From the NCBI GenBank assembly GCA_002713215.1, contig PAVO01000028.1:1-64000 (forward strand): 64,000 bases of DNA, written 5' to 3'. Positions 10,948-18,269 of this stretch are shown here, piece after piece (positions within the stretch are counted from its first letter, which is position 1; every line of letters begins with the position of its first letter). The notes under the pieces were generated by a model that did no database searches, was not told the origin of the DNA, and saw only the letters and a list, made by a program, of their open reading frames with translations. The position numbers and the translations under genes are program-made. This DNA is from Crocinitomicaceae bacterium (GTDB lineage Bacteria > Bacteroidota > Bacteroidia > Flavobacteriales_G > Salibacteraceae).

Positions 10948-12045
10948 TTATTTTAGTCGAATTGGGGCCTTCGCATGTGGATTAGCCAAATAATCAATAA
11001 CCGTTTTAATTTCTTCCCAATATGAAAAACGATGAACATCAAAGAAAACAATTCCGCTGCACCATTCGTTTTGTTTGGTTAACCAAGTCTTTCTTATGTA
11101 TGTTTTATTTTCAACTTCATCTCCAACAACATTTATTCCTTTAATAAAGACAAGGTTTGGGTAGCCAGCTACCATCTGGTTTGAGCTAGCCCTCCTTTTG
11201 CTTTTCAATTTTTTTTTATAGTTGACCATTTCATAAATTCCAATAGACCTTTTTCCAATTATTCTTTTGATGCCGATACTTTTATTACCGATGTCAGTTG
11301 CGTCATTAATTACATAAAGGTCAAAGTATACAACCAAGCCGCTATTTGTATTTGTACTTATACTACTTGACTGAAATGTTAGTTTGATATTGATTCCTTT
11401 TCGAATTTCCCACTCCACAAATTCTTCATTTAAATTCTTGTCAACACTAAGTATTTCATTTATAAAACTGTCATCAAGCATTTCTTTAAAAGCGTCAAAG
11501 TCAATAGATTTATTAAATGTTAATTCTATTTCGAATGGAGTATCAATCTTTTCAAGTATAAGGTTTGCAATTTTAATTTTAACTTCAGGCTTGTACAGGT
11601 TAGAGATTTCTGCAGTTTTGCACTCAACATAGGTTACATTACCGTTCTTTTCTAGTTGCAAATCAGGATGAGGCCCTGTGTGACTATCCATAATTGGTTC
11701 CATGATGACTTTGAATCCATTATCGCCTAAAAAACCTGCGACTTCGGCGCAATAAATATGTGAATTGAATTCTCTTTTATTGTATAGTTTTATATGCCTT
11801 TCAAAACCGTCAAAACCGTCAAAACCGTCAAAACCGTCAAAACCTGCAATTTTATGCAGACAATTACTTGTATTTATTATTTTATCAATATCATTTCCTG
11901 ACACTTCGGTTGGGAATAGAACTAGGTACTTTTCATTGAAAGTTTTAAGTAGAAAGCGGACATGATTTTCGACATCTTCGATTGTAATGTTCCTACTTTC
12001 GAGAAAATCGTTTTGGATACTTATGTTAACTTTTATTGTTTTCAA
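10948..12045 (-). CDS. PD-(D/E)xK nuclease-like protein with GFD tandem repeat
   Basis: A 365-aa protein starting with TTG. An in-frame ATG is not available upstream before a stop. Residues 68-82 are GFD repeated four times plus GFE, encoded by a 9-nt repeat. A complete PD-(D/E)xK layout follows: Glu101 in AEVAGFLGDNGF, Pro127-Asp128 in GPHPDLQLE, and Glu141-Cys-Lys143 in VTYVECKTAE. This predicts a metal-dependent nuclease fold. The C-terminal half is unassigned. It is the last gene of the minus-strand block after the HEPN and 1264-aa genes, 90 nt from the HEPN gene. A role in phage or plasmid defence is inferred from that context. Confidence 0.65.
   Translation of the reverse strand: MKTIKVNISIQNDFLESRNITIEDVENHVRFLLKTFNEKYLVLFPTEVSGNDIDKIINTSNCLHKIAGFDGFDGFDGFDGFERHIKLYNKREFNSHIYCAEVAGFLGDNGFKVIMEPIMDSHTGPHPDLQLEKNGNVTYVECKTAEISNLYKPEVKIKIANLILEKIDTPFEIELTFNKSIDFDAFKEMLDDSFINEILSVDKNLNEEFVEWEIRKGINIKLTFQSSSISTNTNSGLVVYFDLYVINDATDIGNKSIGIKRIIGKRSIGIYEMVNYKKKLKSKRRASSNQMVAGYPNLVFIKGINVVGDEVENKTYIRKTWLTKQNEWCSGIVFFDVHRFSYWEEIKTVIDYLANPHAKAPIRLK
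11801..11844 (-). repeat. 9-bp minisatellite encoding GFD
   Basis: TCAAAACCG is repeated four times head to tail, followed by a truncated fifth copy. Each unit adds exactly three residues (GFD on the minus strand), so copy-number change by slippage would lengthen or shorten the protein without a frameshift. Confidence 0.95.
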
Positions 12046-12135
12046 CTTAAACTGCGTTTTATCAATTAATCATGGCACAGTTTCAACCTTAAGCTATCAT
12101 GACAGTTGCCATGCACAGTTGTTGCCTTATGCCTG

Positions 12136-12750
12136 TTATGGAAGTATTTTAGTAATGAGTCTATCACAAGATTCAACAAACAATTTAATGTCAGCAATTT
12201 GCTTTTTTGATCTGGTATGATCAACTTCCTTCAATTTATCATGAGAATTGTAATCGCCTTTATGAACAATCTCATGTCTTCGCTTAATGGTTCTTCCAAT
12301 TGATTTTATCAAAGCCTTTCGCTTAGTTAACCCTTGTGCATTAGTTGTCAAATTATTTATTCCATAAATTTCGAATAATCTGTCAATTACATCAAACCTT
12401 TGTGTTGTATATTCAGATAGGTATTGATCAACGAGAGTTCGAATTCGTCTGTAAGGTCTATCCATGGTTATCATTTGTAGCGCTTGCTCAGTATTTAGGC
12501 CAGCTTTTTGTAATACGTCAACAAGCTGCCTTGTGGTTCCTTTATTCTTTATAAAACTAATTAGATTCTCAGTAAACCTAGAAGTAAAGTAGGCGTCCAT
12601 TCCAGAAACTGCCAGAACAATTGCTGAACGAATTAAGTCAGCATTATTTAAACCTACAAAAGTTGGGTTGTTGTGGGTTTTTTGATAAATGATGAGAAGT
12701 CCATTACTTCGATTAATAGTCTTATGAAAAGTGTCAAGTGCTTTAGTCAT
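12136..12750 (-). CDS. HEPN-domain protein (RiboL-PSP-HEPN-like)
   Basis: A 204-aa all-helical protein. LIRSAIVLAVSGMDAYFTSR (residues 39-58) resembles the first helices of RiboL-PSP-HEPN domains, and RRHEIVHKGD near 157-166 supplies the HEPN catalytic signature Arg158-x4-His163. HEPN proteins with this motif are typically metal-independent RNases used in abortive infection and toxin-antitoxin systems. The gene starts 29 nt after the end of the 1264-aa protein gene and is probably in the same operon. That it is the RNase effector of a defence operon is inference. Confidence 0.75.
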   Translation of the reverse strand: MTKALDTFHKTINRSNGLLIIYQKTHNNPTFVGLNNADLIRSAIVLAVSGMDAYFTSRFTENLISFIKNKGTTRQLVDVLQKAGLNTEQALQMITMDRPYRRIRTLVDQYLSEYTTQRFDVIDRLFEIYGINNLTTNAQGLTKRKALIKSIGRTIKRRHEIVHKGDYNSHDKLKEVDHTRSKKQIADIKLFVESCDRLITKILP

Positions 12751-12779
12751 AACTTAAAGGCATTGCATTATATCTAGTT

Positions 12780-15700
12780 TTAATGGTCAAGTTCATCTCG
12801 CTCAGCACTTTCATCCATACGTTTTGCATCTTCAATATATCCTTTGGCCAGACTGGTCAATATTTTGGCTGTTTCAGGAAATTCAAACTTAATGGCTTCA
12901 GCCTGCTTTTGAAAGAATTCAGCATGACCTCTTTCGATCTCACCTCCATCAAAAACACCTCTAGTTGATGATCCTCTTTTGTTAGAGGTCGCTGAGGAAA
13001 AACCACTCTTTAGACTATCAGTGTTAATGGATTCTATGATCTTACATATTTCTACTGGTGGCCAGTGCTTCTCTTTTTCTGGATATTCTGCCAATACCTG
13101 GCCAATATGTACATCAGCAACTTTTAACCTACCTGATCTTTCTGCTAATTCTCTTACTTCTTTTATCCAATCCACCAAGTACTTTTCATCAATGTTTATG
13201 TTATCATCTACTCCTGGTATTTGTTTCCATGAACGCAGTAGGTCAAAAGCATTTTTACTCCTATTTCGTCTTGCCTCATCTGAAATATCCTCAGAGACCT
13301 CTTCTTTTATATCTTCTTTATCGGATTTATACACCCATTTTAATACCTCAACAAAAAATTCAGGATTGCTAGCCAATTCCTCGTGAAGTACTTTAGGTTT
13401 GTGATTTGACCCATAGGAAGTTAAAAATGGGAGGTATAGGCCTTCAATATTCAAAAGAACCGACTTTTCAATGTCCTCTCTTGTTTCAAGTTCTTGAATG
13501 ATTTGGGTTACATGGTAACTATCCAGCCTTATTTTTTCGTCTGACTTTTTTGTTCCGACTTTTTGTAATATCTCGACTAGTTTTTCGGAGGGTATTTTTT
13601 TAGGTTCATGGTATGCAACATCCAAGGCACTAAGAAACCGATCTACGCCAATTAGTTTGTTAATTCCCAAGATGTAATCATCATCAGGCAATCTCCAAAA
13701 ATGAGGATATATATTTTTCCAATAACAGTTTTGTATTTCCAGATTTGTATTATCGAGAAATTTCCAGACTTCCTTAGATTGTTCTACTTGATAGAAAATT
13801 CTTGATAACTCTAGGTTTGTAAATTTTAAAACTTTCAGTTTTTTATATAGGTCAAATACCCAATGAATGTCATTGATGATCGACTTTCTATAAATAAATC
13901 GCTGAATAAAACCTTGAACGGAGTCTTCTTCCTTTTTTAGGTATTCACACAATGAAATAATTTCTTCTTCATTGTTGATTATATGAGCTAATGTATCCCC
14001 GTATACCCAGGTTTCTTTAACAATTTCAGCTAACTCTTTTATCTTTTTAAACCCGAATTCATAATATATGGATTTTAGCCCATCAACTCTTCTTTCTAAA
14101 ATCAACTTCTCTTGTTCCTGATAGGATAATTCTTTTCTTTCCAGACCTTCCGGAAATCCAGGCCAATGAACATTGAACATCCATATCACACGCTCTATAG
14201 AATCCGAGGGCTCTAACTTTTTGTAAATACTATCATACCATTTTAATTCTTTTTCTGGTAGTGCCCATTCTGCATCTGGATAAGATCGGTGTTGAGACAA
14301 AGTATCTCCGACTTTACGCCAGGCAGAATTATCTTTAAGTTGTATTTTGTTGAGATTAGATCCAATAAACAACAATAGTTTTTTCCTATCGCTAGATCGT
14401 ATTTTCCTTGAATCAGATTTATCCAATAAATCGATCAGCTTCTTTTCGGAAAAATCGAAATATTCCATAAGTAATTCTAGGACATGGGTATGCGTATCAA
14501 ATATTTCAGACCATAGGTATTGATTATTGAAACTGCGTTCGAAAATTCGCCATCTCAATTTATGTGTAGGAAAGGCTGCACCTGGAATACCGGCTGGAAT
14601 CATACCCAGTAATAACTTCCAACCAGTTTCGTATTCTTTTTTTATGATCTGTTCCAAAATCTTCATACGATCTTCAAAGGCCGCAAGGGTCTGATAATGC
14701 CAGGGCTTATATATTTCACTAAGGCTATTCAAAGGGCGATTGGCCAATTTTCCTCCAGGGTCTAAAGTGGTTAACGTGGCCAAAAGCATTGAAGCATCAA
14801 ATATGTATTCTTCTGTCCATGCTAAACCTTCCAATGCCCAGAGTAAACCAGAATGCTGACTGGTAGGTGAAATGAAACCGTCCTCTTCAATGAACATATT
14901 CATAATAGGCTTATCATCCAAGGACAGAGAGTGATAAGCGGATTCAAAAAAACTTTTTGGAGATGCTTCAGCAATTAAAGGTATTTCACGGTTTCTGGAA
15001 GCCCATAAATCACCGGTGGCTTCATTCAGAAGTTCTTTTATAATGTCATCCACCCATTCTTGAGTGTTTAATTTGTGCCCGAATTTCATTTTGTTTCCGT
15101 ACAAACCCACAAGAATAAGCGATTGTGTTAATCCCTCCCTACACCATTCGGAATAGAGCGATACTTTGCCCCGAAAAGAGGCCATTATTCGGTCTTTAGG
15201 ATCAAGTTCGAATGTTGGATTGATTTCCGACATTACCTTAAGAAAACAGGTTTTCAGATTTTCAAAATCTTTTACTGATAAATGATTAGACAGGTTTGTC
15301 CATGCGTCTAAGGGAGAGGTAAGACGCCATGAACTTCCAATTTTTATTAATGGAGGAGATTCTACTTCTAGCCATTTGTAAAGTTTCTCTAAATACGATT
15401 GATAACTTTCACCTGAGAGATGTTCTAATATCTTTCGATCTCCTACTTTGTTTTCATTCCAACGGCCAATTAATAGTATAGGTACTAATTGGTCTAATTC
15501 TTCTGAGAATTCCCATTTTGCCTTGTTTAGTTCAAATCCAATTAGTCTCTTTAAAATGGTAATATTTCTTGTTGATTCTTTGGAATATTTTTCAGCCTCT
15601 TGCTCTGATAATCCAGAATCGATTAATGCCTTAACCTGACCATCTCGTTCAATATAGGGAAGTGTAATTATATCCTGAGAATTATATGGATCGTCTGGTC

Positions 15701-16574
15701 CCAGCGGTAACAACACATGGTGACTTCGTGCTACTGCGCTGTGCAATTCACTTGTATCATCAAACTTAGCGATTAGGTTCAAATTAAAACTACTTTTTTT
15801 TGCCAGCCTAAAATCTTGTAGATGTTCGATAACCAAACTTTTTGAGTTGAATTGCACTTTGAACTGCTCAGAAGACAGGTTTACTGCTGCAATGATAAAG
15901 GCAATCGCCTCATCCTTTGTGGAGCCTTTTACCCTCAATAAATTTGGCTCCCCCTGAAGGAATTCAATGATTTTTTGGCACTCTATCTCTCTACCCGCAG
16001 TGACAACTTTTGGTGTCAATATGATATGACCATTAGTTTTTTTTGGACCAACCGACCAATTTTCCCAAAAATCCTCAATGGTCAGGCAATTATGATCTCT
16101 TCCTAATTGTGCAGAGAACCACTTATATGTGATTTCAGTCAAATTGACCCAATTGGAAATATTAACCGCATCATATGCCCTAACATCATTCCAAACTTTT
16201 TCTTTGAGTTTTGCCTCAACCCACTTTTTTTTGCCCTTCCAGATTTTTGTAGTGACAAAAATGAACGTGACTCGTGATTTGTCAAATCCTAAACTTTCTT
16301 GTTTCCTTTTTTCATAGTCTGAATCAGCTTGTGTCTTGCCTCCATTTGTTTTTAATTCCCACAGTGATATATCTTCAGGAACTAAACCTGATTTTGAATC
16401 ACATTTTACAATACCATCCCAACCATCAAGAAAGACAGCACTCCCTGTAGGTATTTCGAAAAATGTGCTTCTTGGTGTCGTTTCGAAAATAAGTTTGGCC
16501 ATTAACAAAGGAAATTCACCTTTTGGTTCCTGTCTTTTACCCCAAGCATCTATTTCAGTTCTATCAATTTGCAT
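12780..16574 (-). CDS. Large protein with N-terminal PD-(D/E)xK-like nuclease, defence candidate
   Basis: A 1264-aa cytosolic protein with no signal peptide or membrane segment. Residues about 1-160 look like a restriction-endonuclease fold: GWDG at 51-54 (Asp53) and LWELKT at 71-76 (Glu73, Lys75), followed by ADSDYEKRKQ. A linker (LTPKVVTAGRE, about 187-197) leads to a middle domain with LLRVKGSTKDEAIAF near 212-226, placed where a STAND or AAA P-loop would be expected but lacking GxxxxGK(S/T). Residues about 300-1150 are helical, repeat-like. The tail has a Gly/Ser-rich STRGVFDGGEIERG and a final helix. I recall similar proteins of about 1250 aa in other bacteria but know no named function. 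First gene of the block with HEPN and PD-(D/E)xK partners. Confidence 0.7.
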   Translation of the reverse strand: MQIDRTEIDAWGKRQEPKGEFPLLMAKLIFETTPRSTFFEIPTGSAVFLDGWDGIVKCDSKSGLVPEDISLWELKTNGGKTQADSDYEKRKQESLGFDKSRVTFIFVTTKIWKGKKKWVEAKLKEKVWNDVRAYDAVNISNWVNLTEITYKWFSAQLGRDHNCLTIEDFWENWSVGPKKTNGHIILTPKVVTAGREIECQKIIEFLQGEPNLLRVKGSTKDEAIAFIIAAVNLSSEQFKVQFNSKSLVIEHLQDFRLAKKSSFNLNLIAKFDDTSELHSAVARSHHVLLPLGPDDPYNSQDIITLPYIERDGQVKALIDSGLSEQEAEKYSKESTRNITILKRLIGFELNKAKWEFSEELDQLVPILLIGRWNENKVGDRKILEHLSGESYQSYLEKLYKWLEVESPPLIKIGSSWRLTSPLDAWTNLSNHLSVKDFENLKTCFLKVMSEINPTFELDPKDRIMASFRGKVSLYSEWCREGLTQSLILVGLYGNKMKFGHKLNTQEWVDDIIKELLNEATGDLWASRNREIPLIAEASPKSFFESAYHSLSLDDKPIMNMFIEEDGFISPTSQHSGLLWALEGLAWTEEYIFDASMLLATLTTLDPGGKLANRPLNSLSEIYKPWHYQTLAAFEDRMKILEQIIKKEYETGWKLLLGMIPAGIPGAAFPTHKLRWRIFERSFNNQYLWSEIFDTHTHVLELLMEYFDFSEKKLIDLLDKSDSRKIRSSDRKKLLLFIGSNLNKIQLKDNSAWRKVGDTLSQHRSYPDAEWALPEKELKWYDSIYKKLEPSDSIERVIWMFNVHWPGFPEGLERKELSYQEQEKLILERRVDGLKSIYYEFGFKKIKELAEIVKETWVYGDTLAHIINNEEEIISLCEYLKKEEDSVQGFIQRFIYRKSIINDIHWVFDLYKKLKVLKFTNLELSRIFYQVEQSKEVWKFLDNTNLEIQNCYWKNIYPHFWRLPDDDYILGINKLIGVDRFLSALDVAYHEPKKIPSEKLVEILQKVGTKKSDEKIRLDSYHVTQIIQELETREDIEKSVLLNIEGLYLPFLTSYGSNHKPKVLHEELASNPEFFVEVLKWVYKSDKEDIKEEVSEDISDEARRNRSKNAFDLLRSWKQIPGVDDNINIDEKYLVDWIKEVRELAERSGRLKVADVHIGQVLAEYPEKEKHWPPVEICKIIESINTDSLKSGFSSATSNKRGSSTRGVFDGGEIERGHAEFFQKQAEAIKFEFPETAKILTSLAKGYIEDAKRMDESAERDELDH

Positions 16575-16824: not shown

Positions 16825-16850
16825 AAACTAAGGCACACCTTAGTTTTTTT
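16825..16850 (+). terminator. Orphan terminator-like hairpin
   Basis: AAACTAAGG, a CACA loop and CCTTAGTTT form a perfect 9-bp stem followed by further T residues to 16850. On the plus strand no gene lies upstream of it (the 1264-aa gene diverges at 16574), so it would end an unannotated short transcript from 16.6-16.8 kb or insulate the repeat array. Confidence 0.5.
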
Positions 16851-16917
16851 AAGGTTTAGCTTATTCAAGGTAAGCCATTGCTTAGCTTCCCTGTAAAACG
16901 CCACCACTTTCCGAAAA

Positions 16918-17273
16918 GCGTAGCCGGTTTTCGAAAAAAGAAGAGTGTAGCCATACCCAGTAGGGGGTGCTACACCCCTTTGCACCAAGAAGTGTAGCCG
17001 GGTTTTGCTTTTTTAAGTGTAGCAGGTCAAAAAAATTTTAGGTGTAGCCATACTTTTTTTTTCAAAGTGGCTACACCCGTTTCTGAAAAAAGTGTATCCG
17101 GTTTTTATAAAATTGAAAGTGTAGCCATACCCTCTAGGGGGTGCTACACCCCTTAACGAAAATAATGGATCGGGTTTTTCGAAAAGTTCAACTTGTAGCC
17201 ATGCTCAAACGCCCGGCTACACTGAATTTTTTACATTATTTGGGAATTCGTGGAAAAATAAAACGGGCTACAC
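16918..17273. repeat. GTGTAGCC repeat array, both orientations
   Basis: Exact GTGTAGCC copies lie at 16945, 16992, 17042 and 17119, with variants at 16918, 17017, 17092 and 17193. Inverted copies GGCTACAC lie at 17069, 17215 and 17266, and the shorter GCTACAC at 16969 and 17143. Two near-identical blocks (16944-16980 and 17118-17154) each form a hairpin, GTGTAGC with GCTACAC and ACCC with GGGT. Spacing is irregular. Flanking words recur (CATACC or CGGTTTT after the core). It fills most of the 820-nt gap before the HTH gene and may be a protein-binding array, iteron-like region or set of structured RNA motifs. Confidence 0.75.
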
Positions 17274-17393
17274 CTTGTTTTATTATTGGTCAGCACCGAC
17301 ACCCAGGGTTTTACCAAAATTCCATGCCCCGACCACCTTTAATAATTAAAATAGAAACCTGCTACTGTTTACGGCAGTTAAACCAAAGAAATT

Positions 17394-17660
17394 ATGAGAA
17401 CACGGTTAAAAAGAATAAAATACAAAACCACAGCCTTAGTATGCGGACATGTAATGATAGCAAAAAAGATAAGCGGGCGGGCACTTGCCAGGCAATTGGG
17501 TATTCACTTTACTACCTGGCACCGTTACGTGCGGGGAGAACGCAGGCCCAATACCACAATAAAAGCCCGATTGGTTTCCATGATGGGGGTCGAAAATTTT
17601 ATCGAACTCATTCAAAGGGCTTACAAAGACAAACGTAGAATACAATCCCGATTAAAATAG
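17394..17660 (+). CDS. Small HTH (Xre/Cro-like) DNA-binding protein
   Basis: An 88-aa very basic protein. GRALARQLGIHFTTWHRYVR (about residues 28-47) fits a helix-turn-helix in which ALARQLGI is the first helix and TTWHRYVRGERRP the recognition helix, followed by helices as in Xre/Cro folds. N- and C-terminal Arg/Lys clusters would add non-specific DNA contacts. It lies directly downstream of the GTGTAGCC array, which could be its operator set; this is inference. The ATG at 17394 follows an A-rich stretch with no strong ribosome-binding site. Confidence 0.6.
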   Translation: MRTRLKRIKYKTTALVCGHVMIAKKISGRALARQLGIHFTTWHRYVRGERRPNTTIKARLVSMMGVENFIELIQRAYKDKRRIQSRLK

Positions 17661-17741
17661 CAGGAGTAGTGCAGCATCCGGAAATCCTTCAAGGATGAGA
17701 AACAACAGCAAGGAGATATAAACCAATAAAATTTGTCAATT

Positions 17742-18146
17742 ATGATTACGTTAAATGATCTAACCACTGAAGAGTTGCAATACGTACGCTCGAAGTGGGC
17801 CTCTGAAATAACGGAGATAGACAAAGAAAAGGCGCGAAAGCAGGAAAGGCTTGACGCAAAGCTTGATAGCCAGGGCGATGATGCTGCGGCTAAGGCCAGT
17901 TTGCAAGCCGATATTGCACACGCCCAATCGGTGCGTGATGTGTTGGTGGCCAACAATGCCGATGCTGCTCTTATAGCTGCTCAAGATGCCGTTATAGCGG
18001 AGCTGCAATCGGAGTTGGATGCCTATGGCCTCAGCTCCAGTTACGTAAGCCCTACGGATGCCATACTCCAGCAAATGGATTTGGACGAGTTGACTTACGC
18101 TTCTCAGCGACGTGCTGCCCGAATTGTTGAGATCGATGCGATCTAA
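17742..18146 (+). CDS. Charged helical protein with internal duplication
   Basis: A 134-aa protein from ATG 17742 (an upstream TTG at 17733 is less likely; AGGAG lies at 17711). The ends repeat one pattern: DLTTEELQYVRSKWASEITE in the N-terminus and DLDELTYASQRRAARIVEID at the C-terminus. Between them are long alanine-rich helices (DIAHAQSVRDVLVANNADAA) likely to form a coiled coil. No family recognised. Its bases are visibly richer in G+C than the island to the left. It ends before a nested-repeat element and a strong terminator. Confidence 0.6.
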   Translation: MITLNDLTTEELQYVRSKWASEITEIDKEKARKQERLDAKLDSQGDDAAAKASLQADIAHAQSVRDVLVANNADAALIAAQDAVIAELQSELDAYGLSSSYVSPTDAILQQMDLDELTYASQRRAARIVEIDAI

Positions 18147-18151
18147 GCAAT

Positions 18152-18269
18152 TGCAGATTTAAGCGCCTCCGCTATAGCTACAGGCGACGCGTGGAGCGCC
18201 TCCGCTATAGCTACAGGCGAAACGCAGGGCGCCTATGCATTAGCTACGGCGCTCACGGAAAAATCTGCA
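18152..18269 (+). repeat. Nested inverted/direct repeat element
   Basis: TGCAGATTT (18152-18160) and AAATCTGCA (18261-18269) form outer 9-bp arms. Inside, an identical 24-bp unit occurs at 18163-18186 and 18196-18219 (begins GCGCCT, centre TATAGCTA, ends AGGCG, itself nearly palindromic), with a diverged third copy at 18229-18254. A transcript of this stretch would fold into a branched structure just upstream of the terminator at 18283. It could be a non-coding RNA, an mRNA-stabilising 3' element or a REP-like repeat. Confidence 0.7.

Follow-up and report, generated by a model that had tools for sequence, protein, structure and literature searches.

A Walker A-less, Avs/NLR-like protein of a Crocinitomicaceae bacterium as a probable stand-alone anti-phage sensor

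Do three neighbouring genes of a Crocinitomicaceae bacterium act together as one anti-phage system, or is the largest of them sufficient by itself? The genes lie within the first 64,000 nucleotides of contig PAVO01000028.1 (assembly GCA_002713215.1), hereafter referred to as the window. The initial annotation, made from the sequence alone, described them as a candidate defence operon composed of a nuclease-fused sensor (here called BIG), a HEPN RNase (the HEPN gene) and a second nuclease (the third gene). The arrangement given there agrees exactly with the open reading frame (ORF) calls, with all three ORFs on the minus strand, 29 nt between BIG and the HEPN gene and 90 nt between the HEPN gene and the third gene. 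For their function we favour a different reading, namely that BIG is probably a stand-alone Avs/NLR-like anti-phage nuclease sensor with a degenerate NTPase core, for which we infer a defence activity.

Structure prediction bears out the view that BIG is large, sensor-like and carries a fused nuclease fold. An AlphaFold2 (AF2) model of residues 1-1195 of the 1264, based on an alignment with 52 homologues, reached a predicted local distance difference test score (pLDDT) of 89.9, and its best match in a Foldseek search of the PDB was Avs4 bound to a phage portal (8dgf; E 1.7e-7); Foldseek against viral structures gave no match at E 0.001. The model predicts a tripartite layout of effector, NTPase-fold core and C-terminal repeat sensor. 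With VIA-align, residues 164-347 matched Apaf-1 (Z 8.2; 3.9 Å over 161 residues) as well as the STAND protein 6mfv and Avs5 (9nc9), both with Z 6.7, where values below about 8 (13 for helical repeats) may reflect a mere common arrangement; Dark matched residues 25-519 (Z 8.0). C-terminal to the NTPase-like domain come a winged-helix-like segment and then a helical solenoid of about 800 residues, whose matches were not used as evidence of kinship. Assignment of BIG as a type I or type III restriction subunit or as a helicase was rejected, there being no Pfam match and the model showing a STAND-like fold.

Residues 1-160 are predicted to form a PD-(D/E)XK-like nuclease fold, because the list of matching nucleases is consistent and the acidic residues are conserved. 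The N-terminal 188 residues folded alone gave a pLDDT of 90.4, and VIA-align matched this domain to AF1548 (Z 9.9), FokI (Z 8.9), MspJI (Z 8.2) and LmuA (Z 8.2), and also to Can2 and EcoT38I; the N-terminus of Avs4 matched residues 1-181 (Z 8.2). Foldseek E-values for the domain were modest, with 3.9e-3 as the best. The motif GWDG...ELK, from which the nuclease had initially been recognized, is indeed present, and its acidic residues D53 and E73 occur without exception in all 52 aligned family members. By contrast, the lysine of ELK (K75) occurs in only three of the 52 (the window protein and those of loci L029 and L037) and is replaced by glycine in 44. Judged from this alignment, ELK is a feature of one lineage (subclade), and the window protein has a complete catalytic D...E-x-K triad. 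R90 is invariant (52/52) and K89 is found in 49 of 52 members, both residues lying on the helix that follows the strand. Should the remaining members be catalytically active, the role of the basic residue has probably passed to K89/R90.

STAND/NLR immune proteins are generally held to need nucleotide binding for being switched on. Mutations in Walker A abolish the immunity conferred by Avs5 (PMC12931631). At the Walker A position, GK[S/T] is absent from all 52 aligned BIG members, and the pattern G-x4-GK[ST] occurs in none of 92 full-length ORFs of the family (which include a few duplicates as well as 1182-aa forms without the NTPase domain) as opposed to four of four PD-Lambda-4_A proteins. 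All four of the latter read GLSG[VL]GKT at the P-loop position, where BIG of the window reads VKGSTKDEA and the consensus of its family is x-A-[ST]-[ST]-x-x-E-A-x-A-F. BIG would work like a STAND NTPase but is not filed as one because Walker A is missing from all 52 aligned proteins and all 92 full-length ORFs. Since this loss is family-wide, switching of BIG is probably independent of classical ATP binding. A search of the open-access literature on degenerate Walker motifs yielded nothing useful. We propose that the solenoid of BIG binds a phage protein and that the trigger-bound protein changes shape or oligomerises, with the STAND domain acting as a structural relay; the nuclease domains would thereby be brought together and cut DNA, leading to abortive infection.

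On the evidence of profile comparison, BIG is homologous over its full length, though distantly, to the anti-phage protein PD-Lambda-4_A. Alignment of the BIG family with a PD-Lambda-4_A profile of four genuine proteins from Enterobacteriaceae by hhalign gave a probability of 95.6% and an E-value of 1.1e-8 over 822 colinear columns (residues 8 to 914). The PADLOC model of PD-Lambda-4_A matched 12 of 38 BIG relatives weakly (best E 3.5e-5), and BIG of the window had no match to the PADLOC PD-Lambda-4_A models at E up to 1. PD-Lambda-4_A (PADLOC PDLC03991, 1283 aa) resembles BIG in length, in its nuclease-like N-terminal region and in its colinear NTPase and helical regions; it differs by possessing Walker A (GLSGVGKT) and the motif DGGIDIHV...QAKK, whereas BIG carries GWDG...WE and lacks Walker A. 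The layout of nuclease, STAND core and helical sensor is shared with Avs4/AVAST (8dgf; Z 8.2 for the N-terminal domain), but BIG lacks Walker A and has no sequence-level match to the Avs models of PADLOC. Its N-terminus further has the same PD-(D/E)XK nuclease fold as Lamassu LmuA, Can2/Card1 and Cap4 (Z 5.5 to 8.3). Sensing and activation in those systems are different, involving SMC proteins or cyclic oligonucleotides. The PD systems were identified by selecting experimentally for anti-phage systems (Vassallo et al. 2022; PMC9519451); one of them, PD-Lambda-4, is described as a P-loop NTPase system (PMC10952713).

As far as can be told from sequence, N-terminal effectors have been swapped between BIG lineages. 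In locus L011 (6564-9658, the two-gene form of Buttiauxella) a separate HetE-N protein (PF20701, E 1.5e-40) directly precedes the BIG sensor region, which stands alone, and locus L104 (8555-11688) contains a similar HetE-N-type pair with the sensor region. On viral or prophage contigs, the sensor region is fused to a different N-terminus and no STAND NTPase domain is present (L099:8158-11706 and L103:8149-11697); this N-terminus reads GGGGVHFEAHVQ...DTDDL...QIKHS and may resemble Cap4-type nucleases. One sensor with interchangeable effectors is typical of NLR-like immunity. Many proteobacterial members carry an additional N-terminal helix-turn-helix (HTH) domain. SGxGxN-type segments are present in both L011 and L104. 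The former locus was suspected to represent GAPS6, an assignment that was not confirmed and was dropped; searches of the open-access literature for the BIG family by accession, for GAPS6 and for HetE-N gave nothing useful. In two loci the full-length gene is preceded, at a distance of 20-30 nt, by a truncated BIG paralogue of 361-402 aa that comprises the nuclease and part of the STAND-like domain (L014:5295-6503 and L062:8995-10080).

BIG relatives lie among defence genes of restriction-modification, Kiwa, Lamassu-like and Avs-like type. PADLOC analysis of 113 neighbours of BIG homologues detected type II methyltransferases, type II and type IIG restriction enzymes, KwaA/KwaB, LmuB and several PDC candidates. 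The BIG copy of E. coli FDAARGOS_497 is located between an Avs4-like protein of 1727 aa and a DEAD/DEAH helicase on an integrase-bearing island. The partner that recurs most often is a divergent AbiE-like pair, which accompanies the HTH-fused form in about 12 loci. This toxin-antitoxin pair of AbiE type (AbiEi of about 204 aa, AbiEii of about 307 aa) flanks HTH-fused BIG in L007, L071, L072, L076, L084, L086, L089, L092, L094, L097 and others.

A scan of 84,980 prokaryote species genomes uncovered at least 539 loci of the BIG family, 80 of which were inspected. The family has no entry in Pfam, NCBIfam or PADLOC (2023 set), and its members are probably under-annotated as 'helix-turn-helix' or 'hypothetical' proteins. 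The inspected loci reach Bacillota, Acidobacteria, Cloacimonetes, Myxococcales and Methanosaeta, and a plasmid search returned 22 records from Bacteroidota, Alpha-, Beta- and Gammaproteobacteria and Actinomycetota. Among 5,426 complete E. coli genomes, 82 (about 1.5%) contain an orthologue of the BIG copy from Raoultella; the E. coli orthologue has the accession WP_022645558. The window protein has its nearest homologue (68% identity) in Candidatus Theseobacter exili of the phylum Auribacterota, the next two (60-61%) being from Bacteroidota, and among 100 sampled relatives of the host, the host included, three carry BIG. This patchy distribution, with the closest homologue in another phylum and few carriers among host relatives, indicates spread by horizontal transfer.

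The initial proposal that BIG and the two small genes constitute one system did not hold up at the other BIG loci. Downstream sequence was usable in 76 other loci, of which 17 had a co-directional ORF within 100 nt of BIG. Searches with phmmer and two-sequence hidden Markov models detected no relative of the HEPN gene or of the third gene among these ORFs; those checked by Pfam were unrelated to each other. The neighbourhood survey recommended by the initial annotation thus returned the trio in 0 of 76 loci. We know of no named system with the trio of sensor-nuclease, HEPN protein and second nuclease, likely because the trio does not recur in the loci examined. A genuine three-gene defence system, in which BIG would detect infection while the HEPN RNase and the other DNase would be co-regulated effectors, would fit the tight co-directional spacing, the absence of a terminator-like site on the minus strand of the 29-nt and 90-nt gaps, and the GC (guanine plus cytosine) content, the third gene (0.325) and the HEPN gene (0.333) being the two lowest-GC genes of at least 150 aa in the window (0.398) and BIG being low as well (0.364). 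It is nevertheless unlikely, considering that neither small gene accompanies BIG at the 76 loci, that other homologues of both are found away from BIG as well as from one another, and that BIG alone would be a full effector-plus-sensor protein. HEPN homologues were found in four and third-gene homologues in two of 395 sampled Bacteroidota genomes, the host being included in each count, and a search of plasmids and viral contigs for both gave no match. At the HEPN homologue locus (L122), SIR2-like and HsdR-like genes lie nearby, as judged by eye from the sequence, and the third-gene homologue (L123) is set among housekeeping genes, a context that, for this gene, is among those which the initial annotation itself had named as speaking against its proposal; neither BIG nor the respective other small gene is near L122 or L123. 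The HEPN gene and the third gene therefore look like chance neighbours of BIG. Most likely, each is a separate defence-type gene that came to lie in this low-GC patch, where both are possibly co-transcribed with BIG.

Two further explanations concern BIG itself. It might be a catalytically dead or regulatory DNA-binding protein, such as a plasmid or island regulator, that uses nuclease and NTPase folds only as scaffolds. Loss of Walker A throughout the family, replacement of the ExK lysine by glycine in most members and the HTH fusions of many of them would be in line with this idea, which we regard as quite improbable since the invariance of each of D53, E73 and R90 suggests that the active site has been preserved, the nearest folds are those of nucleases, effector modules have been exchanged for other types, and homologues sit among defence genes. 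Still less probable is a restriction-like enzyme that reads foreign or modified DNA directly, in the manner of type IV restriction, rather than a phage protein. The likeness of the nuclease domain to FokI, MspJI and other restriction enzyme folds and an operon without a methyltransferase are compatible with such an enzyme, but a DNA-reading domain is lacking, the only exception being the optional HTH in other lineages, and in its large solenoid and winged helix BIG is similar to STAND proteins that sense proteins.

Several observations weigh against the reading of BIG as a stand-alone anti-phage sensor. Solenoids resemble many unrelated proteins, and the likeness to Avs4 in this part is weak by itself. 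Absence of K75 from most of the family implies either R90/K89 as putative substitute or no catalysis in most members. The defence context of BIG was counted without a matched random control, which makes the enrichment qualitative, the hhalign comparison rests on only four target sequences, and BIG itself has no PADLOC match. No experimental defence test of any BIG-family member was found in the open-access literature. Finally, BIG and the HEPN protein could act jointly in this one genome.

With regard to the two small genes, it is plausible from their motifs and family matches that both encode nucleases. The second gene had initially been called a HEPN protein, and its match to RiboL-PSP-HEPN (PF18735; E 4e-10, 40.3 bits with a cut-off of 28.4) and intact R-x4-H motif bear this out; the motif (RHEIVH, R158 to H163) is kept as RHIIAH in a distant homologue, RHxIxH being conserved. 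This was the only Pfam match above threshold for the three proteins. Their matches in NCBIfam were all far under the cut-offs, PDB sequence searches with them returned nothing meaningful, and PADLOC had no match for any of the three genes. RiboL-PSP-HEPN has been reported in PD-T4-2, PD-T4-5, PD-T7-3 and ApeA (PMC10952713). Those defence proteins share the Pfam match and the R-x4-H motif with the HEPN protein, which differs from them as a stand-alone protein of 204 aa that lacks the partners of those systems and a PADLOC match. A HEPN-MNT toxin-antitoxin was rejected as no MNT nucleotidyltransferase was matched by Pfam in the genes beside the HEPN gene. The PD-ExK motif noticed early on in the third gene also stood, with E116, H126-P127-D128 and E141-C142-K143 identical in a full-length homologue of 27% identity from another genome (L123:8542-9621); a match to Pfam Hjc remained below threshold (E 0.024, 15 bits, cut-off 21.1). 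Within the third gene, positions 11801-11844 of the window contain 4.9 perfect copies of the 9-bp unit TCAAAACCG, which translate into a GFD repeat immediately ahead of the nuclease motif. The GFD repeat is absent from the L123 homologue; slippage in this repeat would alter the length of the third gene in frame and would not switch it off. Upstream of BIG, numerous TGTAGCC-like words are scattered over positions 16840-17660. After this stretch there is a small HTH ORF (17394-17660; PF13560, E 9.5e-5, under the cut-off), and a 33-bp tandem repeat of about 2.8 copies (18162-18251) lies downstream of a 137-aa ORF (17733-18146). Coordinates of the genes and of the BIG domains are compiled in Table 1.

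Table 1. Genes of the locus and predicted domains of BIG (coordinates refer to the window).
Feature	Coordinates	Strand	Description
BIG	12780..16574	-	1264-aa Avs/NLR-like protein, ATG start; ORF call
BIG domains (residues)			PD-(D/E)XK fold ~1-160; Walker-less STAND-type NTPase ~164-347; winged helix ~350-420; helical solenoid ~430-1264 (predicted)
BIG nuclease domain (residues 1-160)	16095..16574	-	Predicted from separate AF2 model, VIA-align matches and motif counts
BIG NTPase-like domain (residues ~164-347)	15534..16085	-	VIA-align matches; Walker A position reads VKGSTKDEAIAFI
HEPN gene	12136..12750	-	204 aa, ATG start; RiboL-PSP-HEPN (PF18735), R158-x4-H163; probable RNase; adjoins BIG, membership unsupported
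Third gene	10948..12045	-	365 aa, TTG start; PD-ExK nuclease-like, E116...HPD126-128...E141-C-K143; adjacent, membership in system unsupported

Our study draws attention to a protein family that is unnamed yet widespread, with at least 539 loci and presence in about 1.5% of complete E. coli genomes. It is tempting to speculate, with a confidence that is evenly balanced, that BIG represents a large cross-phylum family of NLR/Avs-like sensors without nucleotide binding, in which the STAND fold has been kept, Walker A has given way to a conserved A-[ST]-[ST]-x-x-E-A, and activation would need nothing beyond ligand binding and oligomerisation; this C-terminal sensor would, in related lineages, be joined to other N-terminal effectors without any STAND NTPase domain. 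A Walker-less family that has kept its architecture and an apparently conserved nuclease site would provide a natural test of nucleotide-free activation of the NLR type.

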